Shown one piece after another: positions 1-13,044 of a DNA stretch of 50,263 nt. A program made the position numbers and the translations under genes. How positions within the stretch are numbered: position 1 is the stretch's first letter; each line of letters begins with the position of its first letter. Source of the stretch: Thermoleophilia bacterium (GTDB lineage Bacteria; Actinomycetota; Thermoleophilia; Gaiellales; Gaiellaceae); contig JAICWC010000006.1 of the NCBI GenBank assembly GCA_025934995.1, forward strand, positions 1 through 50,263, read 5' to 3'. Under the pieces are notes generated by a model, which saw nothing but the letters and a program-made list of their open reading frames with translations, had not been told where the DNA came from and searched no databases.

Positions 1-2049
1 ATGCTCGGCGAGTCGCTGTCGATGCTCGTGCCGCAGGTCGTCGGCTTCAAGCTGTCGGGCGCGCTGCCGGAGGGCGCGACCGCGACCGACCTCGTGCTGA
101 CGGTGACCGAGATCCTGCGCAAGGTCGGCGTCGTCGGCAAGTTCGTCGAGTACTTCGGCCCCGGCCTTCCGTCGCTGGCCCTCGCCGACCGCGCGACGCT
201 CGGCAACATGAGCCCGGAAACGGGGGCGACGTGCGGCTTCTTCCCCGTCGACGACGTGACGCTGCAGTACCTGCGACTCACCGGTCGCAGCAACGAGCGC
301 ATCGCGCTCGTGGAGGCGTACTGCAAGGAGAACCTCCTGTGGCACGACGTCGACGATCACCCGACGTACTCGCAGGTCGTCGAGCTCGAGCTCGGCGACG
401 TCGAGCCGTCGCTCGCCGGCCCACGCCGTCCGCAGGACCGCGTCCCGTTGTCGCGCGCGCGCGACGCGTTCATCGAGGCGCTCGACACCTTCGGCGTGCC
501 GTACCAGAACGGGACGTACGACAAGGAGGTCGCTGATTCGTTCCCGGCGAGCGACCCGCCGACCGGAGACGCGACGAGCGACGCCGACGTCGCGCCCGCA
601 CACACCGCGACGATCGACAAGAAGCGCGTCCCGGTCCGCGGCGAGGAGTACGCGCTCGAGCACGGGTCCGTCGTGATCGCGGCAATCACCTCGTGCACGA
701 ACACGTCGAACCCGTCGGTGATGATCGGCGCCGGGCTGCTCGCGAAGAAGGCGGTCGAAGCCGGGCTGCAGCGCAAGCCGTGGGTCAAGTCGTCGCTCGC
801 ACCCGGCTCGAAGGTCGTCACGGAGTACTACGAGCGCTCGGGGCTCGATCGCTACCTCGACGAGCTCGGCTTCAACACGGTCGGCTACGGCTGCACGACG
901 TGCATCGGCAACTCCGGGCCGCTCCCCGACGCGATCGGCGAAGCGGTCAACGAGGGCGATCTCGTCGTCTGCGCGGTGCTGTCCGGCAACCGGAACTTCG
1001 AGGCGCGCATTCACGGCGACGTGAAGGCGAACTACCTCGCGTCGCCGCCGCTCGTGGTCGCATACGCCCTTGCCGGCCGCATGGACGTCGACCTGCTGAA
1101 CGAGCCGCTCGGCGAAGGGACGAACGGCCCGGTCTACCTGCACGACGTCTGGCCGACGCCGCAGGAGATCGACGAGACGATCGCGTCGTCGATCGACGGC
1201 GACATGTTCACGCGAACCTACGGCGACGTGTTCACGGGCGACGAGCGCTGGCGCGAGCTCGACGTGCCGGAGGGCGACCTGTTCGCGTGGGACCCCGAGT
1301 CCACCTACGTCCGGTTGCCGCCCTACTTCGACGGCATGCCCCGCGAGCCGCGGCCGGTGGAGGACATCCACGGCGCGCGCGTGCTCGTCGCGCTCGGCGA
1401 CTCGGTCACGACCGACCACATCTCGCCGGCGGGGGCGATCCGTCCCGACTCGCCGGCCGGCACCTATCTCGTCGAGCACGGCGTCGAGCGCAAGGCGTTC
1501 AACTCGTACGGCGCGCGGCGCGGCAACCACGAGGTCATGGTGCGCGGAACGTTCGCGAACGTGCGACTCCGCAATCAGCTCGTACCGGGCTCGGAGGGGA
1601 CGTGGACGGTGCACGTGCCGTCGGGCGAGGAAGGGACGATCTACGAGGTCGCCGGCCGGTACCGCGACGAGGGGACACCGACGATCGTGCTCGCCGGGAA
1701 GGAGTACGGCAGCGGCTCGTCGCGCGACTGGGCGGCGAAGGGCCCGAACCTGCTCGGGGTGCGGGCGGCGATCGCGGAGTCGTACGAACGGATCCACCGC
1801 TCGAACCTGCTGATGATGGGGATCCTGCCGCTCCAGTTCATGCCGGGCGAGTCGCGCGAGTCGCTCGGATTGACGGGCCGCGAGGAGTATTCGATCGTCG
1901 GCGTCGAGAACGGCGAGGCGAGCGAGGTGACGGTGCGCGCCGACGACAAGGAGTTCCGCGCCCGCCTGCGGCTCGACACGCCGCGCGAGCGGGAGTACCT
2001 TCGCCACGGTGGCATCCTCCCGTTCGTCCTCCGTAAGCTCCTGGGATAG
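1..2049 (+). CDS. acnA: Aconitate hydratase A, 3' part (cut by window edge)
   Basis: TCA-cycle enzyme isomerising citrate to isocitrate through a [4Fe-4S] cluster. The visible 682 residues are the C-terminal three quarters of an AcnA/IRP-type protein of roughly 900 aa. The Met at base 1 is internal, so the true start lies outside the window. Cluster ligands are seen in SCTNTS (about residue 231) and in GCTTCIGNSGP (about 299-302). The swivel domain follows, with GDSVTTDHISPAGAI, NSYGARRGNHEVM and GKEYGSGSSRDWAAKGP, the last carrying the substrate-binding Ser/Arg loop. The end overlaps the next start by 41 bp, which suggests co-transcription with the two small genes downstream. Family assignment is secure; only the missing N-terminus is unknown. 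Confidence 0.97.
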   Translation: MLGESLSMLVPQVVGFKLSGALPEGATATDLVLTVTEILRKVGVVGKFVEYFGPGLPSLALADRATLGNMSPETGATCGFFPVDDVTLQYLRLTGRSNERIALVEAYCKENLLWHDVDDHPTYSQVVELELGDVEPSLAGPRRPQDRVPLSRARDAFIEALDTFGVPYQNGTYDKEVADSFPASDPPTGDATSDADVAPAHTATIDKKRVPVRGEEYALEHGSVVIAAITSCTNTSNPSVMIGAGLLAKKAVEAGLQRKPWVKSSLAPGSKVVTEYYERSGLDRYLDELGFNTVGYGCTTCIGNSGPLPDAIGEAVNEGDLVVCAVLSGNRNFEARIHGDVKANYLASPPLVVAYALAGRMDVDLLNEPLGEGTNGPVYLHDVWPTPQEIDETIASSIDGDMFTRTYGDVFTGDERWRELDVPEGDLFAWDPESTYVRLPPYFDGMPREPRPVEDIHGARVLVALGDSVTTDHISPAGAIRPDSPAGTYLVEHGVERKAFNSYGARRGNHEVMVRGTFANVRLRNQLVPGSEGTWTVHVPSGEEGTIYEVAGRYRDEGTPTIVLAGKEYGSGSSRDWAAKGPNLLGVRAAIAESYERIHRSNLLMMGILPLQFMPGESRESLGLTGREEYSIVGVENGEASEVTVRADDKEFRARLRLDTPREREYLRHGGILPFVLRKLLG

Positions 2050-2293
2050 CGTCCGCGCGGCGATCCTCGAGTCGCCGGGCGCCCTGCCGTCGTACGAGCG
2101 CCGCGCCATCTTCCGCGGCGAGGATCCGCCCGAGCTGCTCGCGCTGCTCGAGAAGGTGCGAACGCGCGCGTACGCGATCGTCGACGCAGACGTCGAGGGC
2201 ATCGACGTCGACGTCGTGATCGAGGCCGCGCTCGCAGCCGCGCTCGGTGAGGCGCTGCGCGACCGCGAGCGCGCGCTGGCGGCGATCGGGTGA
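2009..2293 (+). CDS. Small hypothetical protein between aconitase and AhpD-like selenoprotein
   Basis: A 94-aa acidic, helix-rich protein of unknown function. The GTG start at 2009 lies inside the aconitase gene. No other start precedes the region that looks coding (from WDSVRAAILESPG onward), so this start is taken by default. Its TGA (2291-2293) overlaps the GTG of the next gene in a GTGA, so the pair is probably translationally coupled. The conserved-looking core is YERRAIFRGEDPPELLALL followed by an Ala/Val-rich helix. No domain is recognised. Because it is coupled to a thiol/selenol peroxidase-like protein, it may act with it, but that is inference. Confidence 0.6.
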   Translation: MASSRSSSVSSWDSVRAAILESPGALPSYERRAIFRGEDPPELLALLEKVRTRAYAIVDADVEGIDVDVVIEAALAAALGEALRDRERALAAIG

Positions 2294-2820
2294 GATTCGC
2301 CGAGCTCGAGATCCCGCACGATCCGGATGTCTACGTCTCGGACATCGGGCAGGCGCTGCAGTACCGGCGCGACCTCTTCGGCGGCCCGTTCAGCGAGCTG
2401 CTGCAGGGCGTGATGCGCGGCGACTCGGAGTGGTCGGCCGGCGAGCGCGAGCTGATGGCGTCGTTCGTGTCGTCGCTCCGCCAGTGCCCGTTCTGAACGG
2501 AGGCCCACGGCGCGGTCGCGTCGTCAGCCCTGGAACCGGACGTCGTCGACGCCGTGCTGCGCGACTACGAGACCGCGCCGATCGACGAGAGGCTGCGCGG
2601 GGTGCTGCACTTCCTCGCGACGCTCGATCCCGCTCGTGCGTTCCAGGCCGGGGTCTCGCGCGAGGCGCTCCGCGATGCGATCGAGGTGAAGGCCGGGTTC
2701 GACCTGATCACCCGCTTCGCGGACACGATCGGGGCGAAGCCCGGCTCGGAATGCGGCCTGACGGGCGAACAGGTGCTCGCGCACGGCGCCCGCTTCTACG
2801 ACGAGGGCTACGTCCGCTAA
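2290..2820 (+). CDS. AhpD-like (carboxymuconolactone decarboxylase/peroxidase-related) protein, predicted selenoprotein with in-frame TGA
   Basis: Predicted alkylhydroperoxidase-type enzyme of 176 aa whose catalytic motif is C-P-F-U-T-E-A-H. The codon at 2494-2496 is TGA. Read in the same frame on both sides, the sequence gives an uninterrupted AhpD fold: RELMASFVSSLRQCPF, then TGA, then TEAHGAVASSA. In AhpD relatives the motif is E...CxxC...H, so TGA sits exactly on the second, resolving-type Cys. A SECIS-like hairpin follows at 2507-2524. The GTG start overlaps the previous stop. Downstream the protein has typical AhpD helices (LRGVLHFLATLD, REALRDAIEVKAGFDLITRFAD) and ends at a normal TAA. 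AhpD-like selenoproteins with CxxU are an established family. Expression requires SelA/B/C/D, which cannot be seen here. Automatic gene callers would split it into two fragments of 68 and 88 aa. Confidence 0.88.
2507..2524 (+). promoter_or_regulatory. Bacterial SECIS-like hairpin downstream of TGA(Sec)
   Basis: A 7-bp stem, ACGGCGC (2507-2513) with GCGTCGT (2518-2524, one G-U pair), closes a GGTC tetraloop at 2514-2517. The apical loop begins 18 nt after the TGA at 2494-2496, and its first two bases are G. This fits what is known of bacterial SECIS elements: an apical loop about 16-37 nt after UGA with a G at loop position 1 or 2. The hairpin lies inside the coding sequence, as expected for bacteria. 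Confidence 0.75.
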
Positions 2821-2983: not shown

Positions 2984-3598
2984 CTAGTACAGGCCTTCGC
3001 GCCTGCGGTACCGCTCGAGCCGCTCGGCCTCGTACTGCTCGACGTCGAGCGTCGGGTCGCTCACGGCCTTCAGCATCTCGCCGGAGGTCGGCATCGACTT
3101 CGGGTCGACGTGCTTCTCCGCATTCCAGAGGTCGGAGCGGATGAGCGCCTTCGAGCACTGCGTGTACGCCTCCGCCACCGTGACGAGGATGCCGAGCTTG
3201 GGCGTCTTCCCCTCCACCTCGCTGTCGCGCAGAAGCTCCGCGTCGTCGGTCAGCACGGCGCTGCCGTTGACGCGGAACGTCTCTCCGACGCCAGGGACGA
3301 GGAAGAGCAGCGCGACGCGGCCGCTCTCGAGCACGTTCGTCAGCGTGTCCGCGATCCTGTTGCCGGGCCGCTCGGGGATCAGCAGCGTCCGCTCGTCGAG
3401 GATGCGCACGAACCCGGCCGGGTCGCCGCGCGGCGACACGTCGAGACCGCCGCTCGCGCTCGCGGTCGCGACGCACACGAACGGCGACTCCTCGATGTAG
3501 CGCCGGAAGATGTCGTTGAGACGATCGGCGATCTTGCCCGCGACGAGATCGCTCGGCGACCCGATCAGGTCTCGGAGCTCTGACTCGGTTTCGACCAC
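2984..3598 (-). CDS. Pyridoxamine 5'-phosphate oxidase family FMN-binding protein (MSMEG_1061/DR2398-like)
   Basis: A 204-aa split-barrel flavin/FMN protein. The core ESPFVCVATASASGGLDVSPRGDPAGFV, then LLIPERPGNRIADTLTNVL, then GRVALLFLVPG, is the pattern of the PPOX-class subfamily often named after MSMEG_1061 or DR2398. The C-terminal segment with AYTQCSKALIRSDLW also fits. The physiological substrate of this subfamily is not established; flavin- or F420-dependent redox chemistry is plausible. The GTG start at 3598 lies 34 bp inside the end of qcrB on the same strand, so it is probably the last cistron of the respiratory operon. Whether it works with the cytochromes is unknown. Confidence 0.85.
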   Translation of the reverse strand: MVETESELRDLIGSPSDLVAGKIADRLNDIFRRYIEESPFVCVATASASGGLDVSPRGDPAGFVRILDERTLLIPERPGNRIADTLTNVLESGRVALLFLVPGVGETFRVNGSAVLTDDAELLRDSEVEGKTPKLGILVTVAEAYTQCSKALIRSDLWNAEKHVDPKSMPTSGEMLKAVSDPTLDVEQYEAERLERYRRREGLY

Positions 3599-7618: not shown

Positions 7619-9503
7619 GCTCCTGCGGCTCCTTCCCATGCCACCCCAGCAGCGTCAGCGCCAGGACCACCGCGAAGATCGCCGCGAACAGGTAGTGCGT
7701 GATCACGAGCATCGCGAAGAGCAGGGACAGCGCGAGCGCGAGCAGGATCGGCCAGGGCGACGAGTGCGGCATGTCGACGATCTCGCTCGTCCAACCGTCG
7801 ATGAGCGAGGAGACGTGTTGCTCGTGCCCGCGCTCGAGCGTGCCGACACCTGCCGTCAGGCGATGGCCGTCGCGCTCGCGGTCCTCCGCGTCCCAGTTCG
7901 CGTACGCGCTCGACACCGTCGGGATGACGGCGAAGTTGTACTCGGGCGGCGGCGACGGCACGCTCCACTCGAGCGTCGGCCCGTGCCACGGATCGGGGCC
8001 GGCAGGAGGGCCGCGGAAGTAGGAGACGACGAGGTTCGTGAACAGCGCCAGGATCCCCACCGCCGTGATGTAGCCGCCGATCGACTCGATCACGTTGTAG
8101 GACGTCCACCCCATGTCACCCGGATACGTGTAGACGCGCCGCGGCATCCCGAGCAGCCCGACGATGTGCATCGGGAAGAACAGGAGATTCGTCCCGGCGA
8201 AGATGATCCAGAACGAGATCTGGCCCGGTCGCTCGAAGTACAGCTTGCCGGTGACCTTCGGGAACCAGTAGTACATGCCGCCGAAGATCGGGAAGACCGC
8301 CGCTCCGAAGATGATGTAGTGGAAGTGCGCGACGACGAAGTACGTGTCGGTCGTCTGCTGGTCGAACGGGATCGCGAGGAACATGATCCCGGTCAGCCCG
8401 CCGGCCACGAACATGACGATGAAGCCGATGATGAACAGCAGCGGCGTCTTGAACTTCGGACGCCCCGAATAGATGCTCATGCACCACGCGAACACCTGAA
8501 TCGTCGACGGGATCACGACCATCGACGTCGCGCCGGCGAAGAAGATGAGCGTCGTCGACGGCAATCCGGTCGCGAACATGTGGTGCGCCCACACGCCGAA
8601 GCCGATGAAGACGACGAGCAGCTCGGCAATCGCGACGAGTGGGAACGCAATCATCTTGCGCCGCGTGAACGCGGGGATGATCTCGGTCGCGATCCCGAAG
8701 GCGGGAACGATGAGGATGTACACCTCGGGATGCCCGAAGAACCAGAACAGGTGCTGCCACAGGAACGACGAGCCCCCGTGGGCGACGTCGAAGAAGTGGA
8801 AGCCGAGGTTGCGCTGCAGGAAGAGGAAGATCAGGTCGACGCTCAGCGACGGCAGCGCGAAGATCAACCCGAAGGAGGCCGCGAGGAACGCGAAGCAGAA
8901 GAGCGGCATCCGGTTGAACGACATGCCCGGGGCGCGCAGCTTGAGGATGGTCACGATCAGGTTCGCGGCCGTCAGCGTCGACGCGATCGAGTTGAAGGCG
9001 AGCCCGACCGTGTAGAACTCGATGTTCCGCGACGGGTCGTGTAGACGGTCGGCGAGCGGCACGTAGTTGAACCAGCCGGCATCGGGGCCGAAGCCGCTGA
9101 ACAGGCCGATGTAGAGGAAGATCCCCGACGCGAGGAAGATCCAGAAGCTCAGCGCGTTCATGCGCGGGAACGCCATGTCGCGCGCGCCGATCATCAGCGG
9201 CACGAGGTAGTTGCCGAACGCGCCGGTGGTCATCGGGATGATGAACCAGAAGATCATCGTCATCCCGTGCACGGTGAACAGCTGGTCGAAGGTCTCGGGG
9301 CCGACGAGGTCGTTGTTGGGCTGGATCAGCTGCGAGCGCATGATCAGCGCCTCGACGCCGCCCGCTCCGAAGAAGACGAGCGTCGTCCAGAAGTAGAGAA
9401 GGCCGACGCGCTTGTGGTCTGTCGTCGTCAGCCAGCCGAGGACGCCGGGACGCTCCGCCCACTGCCGCTCGAGCCTGTCGACCCGTTCCGCGACGCTCGT
9501 CAC
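7611..9503 (-). CDS. ctaD: Cytochrome c oxidase subunit I with C-terminal two-helix extension
   Basis: Catalytic subunit (630 aa) of an A-type heme-copper oxidase that reduces O2 to water and pumps protons. Visible hallmarks are FTVHGMTMIFWF (heme a ligand), WQHLFWFFGHPEVYILIVPAFG (CuB His, cross-linked Tyr and K-channel region), GVWAHHMFATG (CuB His pair), and VVAHFHYIIFG (heme a3/a ligands). After the standard core (ending near YFRGPPAGPDPWHG) come about 100 extra residues: a charged linker and two close TM segments (PWPILLALALSLLFAMLVIT and LFAAIFAVVLALTLLGW). These look like a fused subunit IV. The GTG at 9503 overlaps the ctaC stop as GTGA. Confidence 0.96.
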   Translation of the reverse strand: MTSVAERVDRLERQWAERPGVLGWLTTTDHKRVGLLYFWTTLVFFGAGGVEALIMRSQLIQPNNDLVGPETFDQLFTVHGMTMIFWFIIPMTTGAFGNYLVPLMIGARDMAFPRMNALSFWIFLASGIFLYIGLFSGFGPDAGWFNYVPLADRLHDPSRNIEFYTVGLAFNSIASTLTAANLIVTILKLRAPGMSFNRMPLFCFAFLAASFGLIFALPSLSVDLIFLFLQRNLGFHFFDVAHGGSSFLWQHLFWFFGHPEVYILIVPAFGIATEIIPAFTRRKMIAFPLVAIAELLVVFIGFGVWAHHMFATGLPSTTLIFFAGATSMVVIPSTIQVFAWCMSIYSGRPKFKTPLLFIIGFIVMFVAGGLTGIMFLAIPFDQQTTDTYFVVAHFHYIIFGAAVFPIFGGMYYWFPKVTGKLYFERPGQISFWIIFAGTNLLFFPMHIVGLLGMPRRVYTYPGDMGWTSYNVIESIGGYITAVGILALFTNLVVSYFRGPPAGPDPWHGPTLEWSVPSPPPEYNFAVIPTVSSAYANWDAEDRERDGHRLTAGVGTLERGHEQHVSSLIDGWTSEIVDMPHSSPWPILLALALSLLFAMLVITHYLFAAIFAVVLALTLLGWHGKEPQEHG

Positions 9504-11633: not shown

Positions 11634-11650
11634 GTCGGTAGTCTGATCGC

Positions 11651-11724
11651 ACCGGGGTGCCGCGCCCAAACGCGGCTGAGATCACACCCGTCGAACCTGA
11701 TCCGGCTCGTACCGGCGAAGGGAG
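11651..11724 (+). promoter_or_regulatory. TPP riboswitch (THI element)
   Basis: All the conserved THI-box blocks appear in order: ACCGGGGTGC (11651-11660), a P3-type hairpin CGCG-CCCAAA-CGCG, the invariant GGCTGAGAT (11674-11682), ACCCGTCGAACCTGATC (11686-11702), CCGG-CTCGTA-CCGG (P4/5 region), and the closing CGAAGGGAG (11716-11724). The closing GGGAG is also the best SD for the TTG start at 11734. That suggests TPP binding blocks translation by hiding the SD, the usual mode in actinobacteria. No U-tract terminator is seen. Confidence 0.95.
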
Positions 11725-11733
11725 TGAAGTCGT

Positions 11734-13044
11734 TTGTCGGAGAGAACGCCGTCCTGGGGCATCGAGCCGGTTCCGGAGCGCCTGCGCCGCTTCGGCGCGC
11801 TCGACAATGCGATGCTGTGGAGCAGCCTCGGCCTGAGCCTGCTCGTGCTCGTCGCCGGCACGGTGCTGGTGCCCGCGCTCTCCCTGCGCGCCGCGCTGCT
11901 CGCGATCGTCGTCGGCGGAATCTTCGGAAACGTCTTGCTCGGGCTCGCTGCGCTGCTCGGCGCCGAAGCACGCGTGCCGGCGATGGTGCTGCTCCGCGCG
12001 CCGCTCGGCCGGGCCGGGTCCTGGCTGCCGACCGCGCTCAACGTGCTGCAGAACGTCGGGTGGACGGTGTTCGAGGTGCTCGTGATCGCCACCGCGGCGC
12101 ATGCGCTCGTGCAGGGGCCGATGTGGGTCTGGAAGCTCGTGGCCGCCGGAGCCGCGACCGCGCTCGCACTCGTCGGCCCGATCGGCTTCGTGCGCGAGTG
12201 GGTGCGACGCTTCGCGCTCTGGGTCGTCCTCGCGTCGCTCGCGTACCTCACGTGGTGGGCGCTCCACGACGCAAACCTGAGCGCGCTCTGGTCGCGTCCG
12301 GGCAAGGGCGGGTTCCCGACGTTCTGGCAGGGCGTCGACCTGATGATCGCGATGCCCGTCTCGTGGCTGCCGCTCGCCGCGGACTACACGCGGTTCTCGC
12401 GCCGCGGGCGCAGCGCGTTCTGGGGGACGACCGTCGGCTACTTCATCCCGAACGTCTGGCTCTACGCGCTCGGTGCGATCCTCCTGTTGACGCGCGGGTT
12501 GAGCGACGCGCCGTCTGTGCTGACCGCGATCGCTGCGGGCGGCGCCGCGGCTGCGATCGCGCTCCTCGCGCTCGGCGTCGACGAGACGAAGGAGCCGTTC
12601 GCGAACATCTATTCCGCGGCGGTCTCCCTGCAGAACGTCCTGCCGCGCGTGCCGCAGCGGGCGTTGATCGTGATCGTGGCTGCGGTCGCGACGGCCGGAA
12701 CGTTCGTCATCGACCTCGTCCAGTACGCGAGCTTCCTGCTTCTCCTCGGCTCCTTCTTCGTGCCGCTCTTCGGGGTCCTGCTCGCCCAGTGGCTCGTCGG
12801 CGCCCGCGACCCATTCGCGGCCCGCGAGGTGCGCGCCGGCCAGATCCTCGCGTGGCTCGCAGGCTTCGGGCTCTACCAGTGGCTCTCGCCCTCCGGTCCA
12901 GGCTGGTGGACGCGCCTCGTCGACGTGACCCATCCGGCGATCGGCGGCTCGCTCCCGAGCTTCGCGGCTGCGTTCCTGCTCAGCATTGCGCTTACGCTTC
13001 CGGCCCGTGCGGCCGCTCGGCGTCATCGGGCATCTCTCGCGTGA
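11734..13044 (+). CDS. cytX: CytX-type hydroxymethylpyrimidine (HMP) transporter, NCS1 family
   Basis: A 436-aa transporter with about 12 hydrophobic segments of the nucleobase:cation symporter-1 family. N-terminal features (SWGIEPVPERLRRFGALDN, then WSSLGLSLLVLVAGT) and PMSWLPLAADYTRFSR are typical of the CytX/CodB branch. The TPP riboswitch directly upstream identifies the probable cargo as the thiamine pyrimidine precursor HMP or a close analogue, since CytX is a known TPP-regulated predicted HMP transporter. Translation starts at TTG 11734, 9 nt after the SD that is part of the riboswitch. The end overlaps the kinase gene by 38 bp. Confidence 0.9.
   Translation: MSERTPSWGIEPVPERLRRFGALDNAMLWSSLGLSLLVLVAGTVLVPALSLRAALLAIVVGGIFGNVLLGLAALLGAEARVPAMVLLRAPLGRAGSWLPTALNVLQNVGWTVFEVLVIATAAHALVQGPMWVWKLVAAGAATALALVGPIGFVREWVRRFALWVVLASLAYLTWWALHDANLSALWSRPGKGGFPTFWQGVDLMIAMPVSWLPLAADYTRFSRRGRSAFWGTTVGYFIPNVWLYALGAILLLTRGLSDAPSVLTAIAAGGAAAAIALLALGVDETKEPFANIYSAAVSLQNVLPRVPQRALIVIVAAVATAGTFVIDLVQYASFLLLLGSFFVPLFGVLLAQWLVGARDPFAAREVRAGQILAWLAGFGLYQWLSPSGPGWWTRLVDVTHPAIGGSLPSFAAAFLLSIALTLPARAAARRHRASLA

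Follow-up and report, generated by a model that had tools for sequence, protein, structure and literature searches.

A predicted AhpD-like selenoprotein gene and its conserved small upstream gene in a Thermoleophilia genome

Reports of AhpD-like selenoproteins with a CxxU motif date from 2005 for the Sargasso Sea (PMC1088965) and from 2008 for GOS (PMC2398784), and an inventory of 2026 lists AhpD-like selenoproteins under TIGR01926 and NF041238 (PMC13188914), according to the accessible parts of these three papers. For AhpD itself, the available portion of PMC3141380 gives a proton relay with the spacing Glu-(11)-Cys-(2)-Cys-(3)-His. A bacterial SECIS hairpin has a small loop containing a G, and its distance from the UGA, by the rule in the accessible text of PMC10778597, is 16-37 nt. 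PMC12013277 contains none of the terms AhpD, carboxymuconolactone and Actinobacteria.

The window, by which we mean the whole stretch of 50,263 nucleotides of Thermoleophilia DNA that was analysed, contains a candidate gene for such a protein. Ordinary open reading frame calling breaks it into fragments of 68 aa (2290-2496) and 88 aa (2554-2820), as a preliminary description of this DNA had expected, and because the gene is split in this way the enzyme is easily lost from annotation. The frame at 2290-2820 has one internal TGA, at codon 69 (2494-2496), and the following features were assigned to it:

2290..2820, + strand: predicted AhpD-like selenoprotein gene with a GTG start, 176 residues and a TAA stop, translated with TGA as selenocysteine (Sec)
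2494..2496, + strand: putative selenocysteine codon TGA (U69), with TGA in the same column in 30/30 aligned CxFU-type genes
2485..2508, + strand: active-site motif C66-P-F-U69-T-E-A-H73, with C66, residue 69 and H73 invariant in 22/22 aligned sequences

The GTG start at 2290 overlaps the stop codon of the upstream gene as GTGA, and an ATG at the corresponding position of the nearest relative (L020) speaks for it. The TGA had been proposed to fall on the second position of an AhpD CxxC...H motif, and the translation agrees, reading C66-P-F-U69 with H73 after it. In the 22 aligned sequences, which are a selection of the homologues examined, E54 (codon 2449-2451) is invariant along with C66, residue 69 (C or U) and H73. 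The four residues E54, C66, U69 and H73 of the selenoprotein have the AhpD proton-relay spacing given in the accessible part of PMC3141380, and position 68 is Phe, not His or Tyr. With the TGA read as Cys, the product scores 26.3 bits against Pfam CMD (PF02627; gathering cut-off 23). It misses the cut-offs of the TIGR01926 peroxidase-related enzyme family (46.9 vs 81.8) and of the NF041238 AhpD-related (seleno)protein family (31.3 vs 175). An AlphaFold model of the selenoprotein (pLDDT 91.1) retrieved AhpD-type peroxidase-related structures in Foldseek with a probability of 1.00.

We searched for homologues of the selenoprotein in 129 genomes of the same order and, separately, in 396 genomes of the phylum. 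The first search gave 60 matches in 51/129 genomes, of which 54 have an internal TGA, five have no stop and one has a TAG that lies past the domain. All 46 genes that were examined among the 54 TGA-bearing matches have the TGA at the CxxU site. Thirty of these 46 are of the CxFU type, and in every one of the 30 the TGA falls in a single alignment column with no other in-frame stop; these genes are related to one another, and two of them (L039 and L040) are nearly identical. This conservation bears out the earlier proposal of one protein read in the same frame across the TGA, and the possibility raised with it, that homologues stop at this codon, fell away, as the relatives continue past it. 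The median dN/dS is 0.30 before the TGA and 0.35 after it (21 pairs of the seven nearest genes), suggesting similar purifying selection on both sides. The phylum search matched 126/396 genomes. Among the 14 sites read outside the order, six have TGA, seven have TGC or TGT, and one (L097) has a Cys but lacks the motif's first Cys. Homologues that carry Cys in place of the TGA, which the preliminary description anticipated, thus exist at 7/14 of these loci.

Two observations on individual loci were made along the way. L055 (G100:C4, 18198-18743 and 18801-19283) has two tandem CPFU selenoprotein genes behind one partner gene of the kind described below. The near-identical selenoprotein loci L039 and L040 come from genomes assigned to different genera (G095 and G109), which could reflect either transfer or a misbinned contig.

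These comparisons bear on two other explanations of the internal TGA. A true stop, leaving a decaying gene or two separate short proteins, would agree with the two open reading frames of standard calling, and TGA is also an ordinary terminator here, both in the upstream gene (2291-2293) and at the ends of some homologues. However, the TGA occupies the same column in 30/30 genes with no other stop, purifying selection appears similar before and after it, and the codon falls on the catalytic Cys, with Cys forms found elsewhere; we consider a true stop most improbable. The fragmentation of the draft genome (200 contigs) would be in keeping with a sequencing or assembly error that turned TGC into TGA, which had been named as a possible refutation. 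However, the same TGA is found in independently assembled genomes, which refutes an error for the family, and because it is present in 30/30 aligned relatives we exclude a sequencing error; the probability that we leave to it is negligible. Sequencing error, pseudogene and true stop are all very unlikely, and it is highly probable from sequence comparison that 2290-2820 encodes an AhpD-like protein decoded with Sec at the TGA.

The preliminary description further implied that this genome holds a Sec-decoding system, and it named a lack of selB and selC as a possible refutation. The genome assembly (2.85 Mb, 200 contigs, 88% complete, 5.9% contamination) carries tRNA-Sec on contig C48 (ARAGORN: SeC, anticodon tca), together with selA and selB, both over cut-off, and selD on C181, also over cut-off. 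All four components of the implied system were therefore found, selB and tRNA-Sec among them, although the genome is a draft. C48 aligns collinearly with one contig of G108, a genome of the same genus, in two long blocks with DNA identities of 82% and 84%, and the tRNA-Sec is 99% identical between the two. Against G108, the aconitase of the window is 91% identical and the selenoprotein 78%. Because C48 is collinear with G108 and the aconitase and selenoprotein are similar to those of G108, the window contig and C48 are plausibly of one lineage.

Two further stretches of this genome concern selenium. A second piece of selA lies at a contig end (G000:C155:12759-13439, L018) and is 90% identical over 242 residues to the selA of C48, which hints at a strain mixture in the bin. 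A formate dehydrogenase alpha (FdhA) stretch (G000:C195:15719-16468, L101) reads UHSSTV with one in-frame TGA and is likely to represent a second selenoprotein of this genome; its match to the family is partial and below the cut-off.

The Sec trait is common in the order, because selA scores over cut-off in 77/129 genomes. We placed weight on the high-quality subset, in which selA is over cut-off in 14/14 TGA-homologue genomes that are >=90% complete and <=5% contaminated, and not on the comparison of all 129. In that wider comparison, among the matches listed, selA is over cut-off in 35/47 TGA-homologue genomes vs 42/82 others (p 0.015), tRNA hits of 91-92 nt occur in 30/47 vs 36/82 (p 0.044), and either marker or a selA fragment occurs in 36/47 vs 52/82 (p 0.17). 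The 12/47 TGA-bearing genomes without selA over cut-off, again among the matches listed, are all <90% complete. The Rfam tRNA-Sec model was rejected as a marker of the trait; it matched 129/129 genomes, a tally that says little because the model matches tRNA-Ser too.

A second AhpD-like Sec type, CHYU, was seen at L066 (G056), L068 (G061), L072 (G058), L073 (G053) and L074 (G057). These CHYU genes lie at most some 3-4 kb from selA on the same contig, and in G053, G056, G057 and G058 that contig also carries tRNA-Sec, so that the CHYU gene seems to lie within a sel gene cluster.

A stem-loop follows the TGA in the window:

2507..2524, + strand: SECIS-like hairpin with a 7-bp stem, assigned from RNA folding, synonymous constraint and pair counts

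The hairpin is made up of ACGGCGC (2507-2513), the loop GGTC (2514-2517) and GCGTCGT (2518-2524). The preliminary description had a hairpin with a GGTC loop starting 18 nt after the TGA; that position is where the loop starts (17 nt between), the stem having begun 11 nt after the TGA. With 17 nt between UGA and loop, the hairpin fits the bacterial SECIS range of 16-37 nt given in the accessible part of PMC10778597, as had been claimed. Folding energy was tried twice as evidence for a SECIS and was uninformative in this GC-rich sequence: the energy is ordinary (z -0.65, with 46/200 shuffles folding at least as well), and relative to synonymous recoding the mean z is -0.63 over 30 genes, with p <=0.05 in 1/30. 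RNAfold of a 30-nt slice gave a hairpin of the 2507-2524 type in 21/30 genes and a different hairpin in 9/30.

It is the comparative signal, not folding energy, that provides strong evidence for the hairpin at the level of sequence. Codons +3 to +9 after the TGA, the stretch occupied by the hairpin, have the highest synonymous constraint of 141 seven-codon windows in the 30 CxFU-type genes (0.83 where 0.50 is expected; z 13.6; 300 shuffles reached at most 0.58), against a background that is raised by the relatedness of the genes (median z 2.1), and a second peak starts at codon +17 (z 7.4). The loop is GGUC in 22/30 genes and AGUU in 8/30, always through the coupled codons GCG-GTC or GCA-GTT, and the switches between the two may represent few events. 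Loop positions G22 and T23 are invariant in 30/30, and SelB binds GU loops such as this one. Across 29 distinct rows, 98.5% of the cells of the 7-bp stem are paired, and four of its seven pairs never vary. One compensatory change was found, in L024, where a G-U pair has become C-G with two residues altered, and L026 breaks three stem pairs as aligned. When the loop cap is included among the pairs, both sides have changed in 8 cells, which was reached by 0/500 shuffles; the number of pair types is not unusual (449 of 500 shuffles).

SelB-dependent decoding of UGA always competes with termination. The TGA could on this general ground act as a switch, with the 68-residue fragment working without selenium and the full-length protein made only when selenium is ample; we found nothing that specially favours such a switch. 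The 68-residue fragment ends right before the catalytic Sec and is without the following helices, and constraint goes on downstream of the TGA, both of which argue against a switch and make it very unlikely.

What is added here beyond the preliminary description is a small gene directly upstream of the selenoprotein gene:

2009..2293, + strand: small conserved gene upstream, 94 aa if started at GTG 2009 (start uncertain), ending with TGA at 2291-2293

This partner gene overlaps the start of the selenoprotein gene by GTGA. A partner lies directly upstream of 28/30 CxFU-type genes, with 48-102 nt between the profile matches, and the products are of about 80-95 residues. Of the two CxFU-type genes without an adjacent partner, one is a second tandem copy and the other lies at the edge of a contig. 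Within the order we counted 31 strong partner hits (E 2e-20 or better), and by coordinates 29 of them lie before a TGA-bearing gene. In G077 the partner is followed by an AhpD-like start that is cut by the contig end, on our reading of the frames. We also observed at L109 (G060:C60, partner 8378-8599) an AhpD-like start that soon loses homology (again on our reading of the frames), apparently a decayed copy of the gene pair. The partner was not found beside CHYU-type Sec genes in the stretches examined, and of the two CPWU-type genes L044 has one and L043 has none. Outside the order, partners occur in six genomes of five families, next to five Sec forms (L076, L077, L080, L081 and L082) and a single Cys form (L083, which is one locus with L098).

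The window copy of the partner has no Pfam or NCBIfam match, and so none over the CMD gathering score. Among 25 partners, 16 match TIGR01926 weakly (best E 1.8e-5), 11 match a T7-like family (best E 0.00067) and five match CMD weakly (best E 0.00088). In a profile comparison the partner aligns with the selenoprotein's C-terminal helices (probability 88, E 2.9e-6). The partner model (pLDDT 92.5) has AhpD-fold structures as its nearest matches, with TM about 0.6, probability up to 0.99 and E about 0.5, none being <0.001. The predicted fold of the partner thus weakly resembles part of AhpD. The partner might touch the selenoprotein, the two being subunits of one complex, a proposal that we advance tentatively.

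Alternatively, the upstream gene could be a coupling leader, a chaperone or a regulator that shares the helical fold by chance, with the selenoprotein acting alone. The GTGA overlap in the window, the absence of a conserved Cys (20/25 partners have none at all), the weak constraint on the partner (median dN/dS 0.63 over 300 pairs) and fold hits only at E about 0.5 would all be compatible with such a role. However, the similarity to AhpD is weak but consistent, and the pair is kept where aconitase was not found adjacent, in other families and with the Cys form. We regard a leader, chaperone or regulator as a serious possibility, a little short of evenly balanced.

The remaining features of the neighbourhood are:

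1..2049, + strand: aconitase AcnA, N-terminal part outside the window, adjoining the pair in close relatives
2984-3598, - strand: FMN-dependent PPOX-type flavoprotein of the MSMEG_1061 family (TIGR04025 over cut-off), downstream of the pair
11643-11740, + strand: TPP riboswitch (Rfam, over gathering score)

Aconitase lies beside the pair in six close relatives (L020-L025) and was not found in the stretches examined from other relatives. Because it is seen only in these six, aconitase linkage was set aside as a functional clue. An Rfam search of the window gave two matches over gathering score, a tRNA and the TPP riboswitch, and none in the selenoprotein and partner region.

A conserved Sec codon, the Sec machinery and the gene pair are each established as far as comparison of sequences can do so. 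In the reading that we prefer, 2290-2820 would be one intact gene for an AhpD-like (CMD-fold) selenoprotein, in which the hairpin at 2507-2524 would guide SelB, carrying Sec-tRNA, to decode the UGA at 2494-2496 as selenocysteine. Sec would stand at the place of the second catalytic Cys of classical AhpD, C66 would probably act as the resolving residue, E54 and H73 would probably form the proton relay, and the product is predicted to be most likely a thiol/selenol peroxidase or a peroxiredoxin reductant. We infer this chemistry with modest confidence, as fairly probable. The upstream gene at 2009-2293 would probably be co-translated, and its product is probably a half-AhpD-like subunit of the same complex.

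The two genes may together represent a distinct two-gene selenoenzyme, a CxFU AhpD-like protein with a dedicated, mostly Cys-free half-AhpD subunit encoded directly upstream, which occurs across several families of the phylum and persists with a Cys form in at least one genome. It would be the hairpin, more than the protein, that constrains the codons following the Sec, with a G-C/A-U cap round an invariant GU and, in one relative, a change from G-U to C-G by way of two residues. This fuller proposal is possible, with nearly but not quite an even chance of being right. If the reading is correct, selenoproteins of a class that was first described from sea-water metagenomes are widespread in an actinobacterial lineage, and the constraint after the UGA would be a clear example of an RNA signal that shapes protein sequence. 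The locus would also offer a testable case in which a selenoprotein and an unnamed half-fold protein form a conserved pair, and the natural Cys form in G220 would allow the chemistry of Sec and Cys to be compared. No description of the partner pair was found in the literature searched, which took in few subscription papers.

The preliminary description was right that AhpD-like CxxU selenoproteins are already known, having been on record since 2005 (PMC1088965). Like those known from the accessible text of PMC1088965, PMC2398784 and PMC13188914, the window protein has CxxU in a domain of the AhpD type, and a hairpin follows the UGA; unlike them, it falls below the TIGR01926 and NF041238 cut-offs and is paired with a small upstream gene. 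It shares the Glu-(11)-Cys-(2)-Cys-(3)-His spacing of AhpD from Mycobacterium tuberculosis and PA0269 from Pseudomonas aeruginosa, and differs from both in the predicted Sec for the second Cys and in the Phe at the His132/Tyr50 position (PMC3141380, accessible portion). Its best sequence and fold matches are the peroxidase-related AhpD-fold structures 2pfx, 2prr, 3c1l, 6k40 and 2oyo (TM about 0.64-0.72), but identity to these is 22-28% and their deposited names do not include 'selenoprotein'. Within the order, the AhpD-like Sec genes of CHYU type (e.g. L045-L047 and L074) have TGA at the same CxxU site, whereas they have no small upstream partner in the stretches examined and lie near selA and tRNA-Sec in several genomes. 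The AhpD-like CxxU selenoprotein is thus a known kind, of which the window gene is a variant with a conserved partner.
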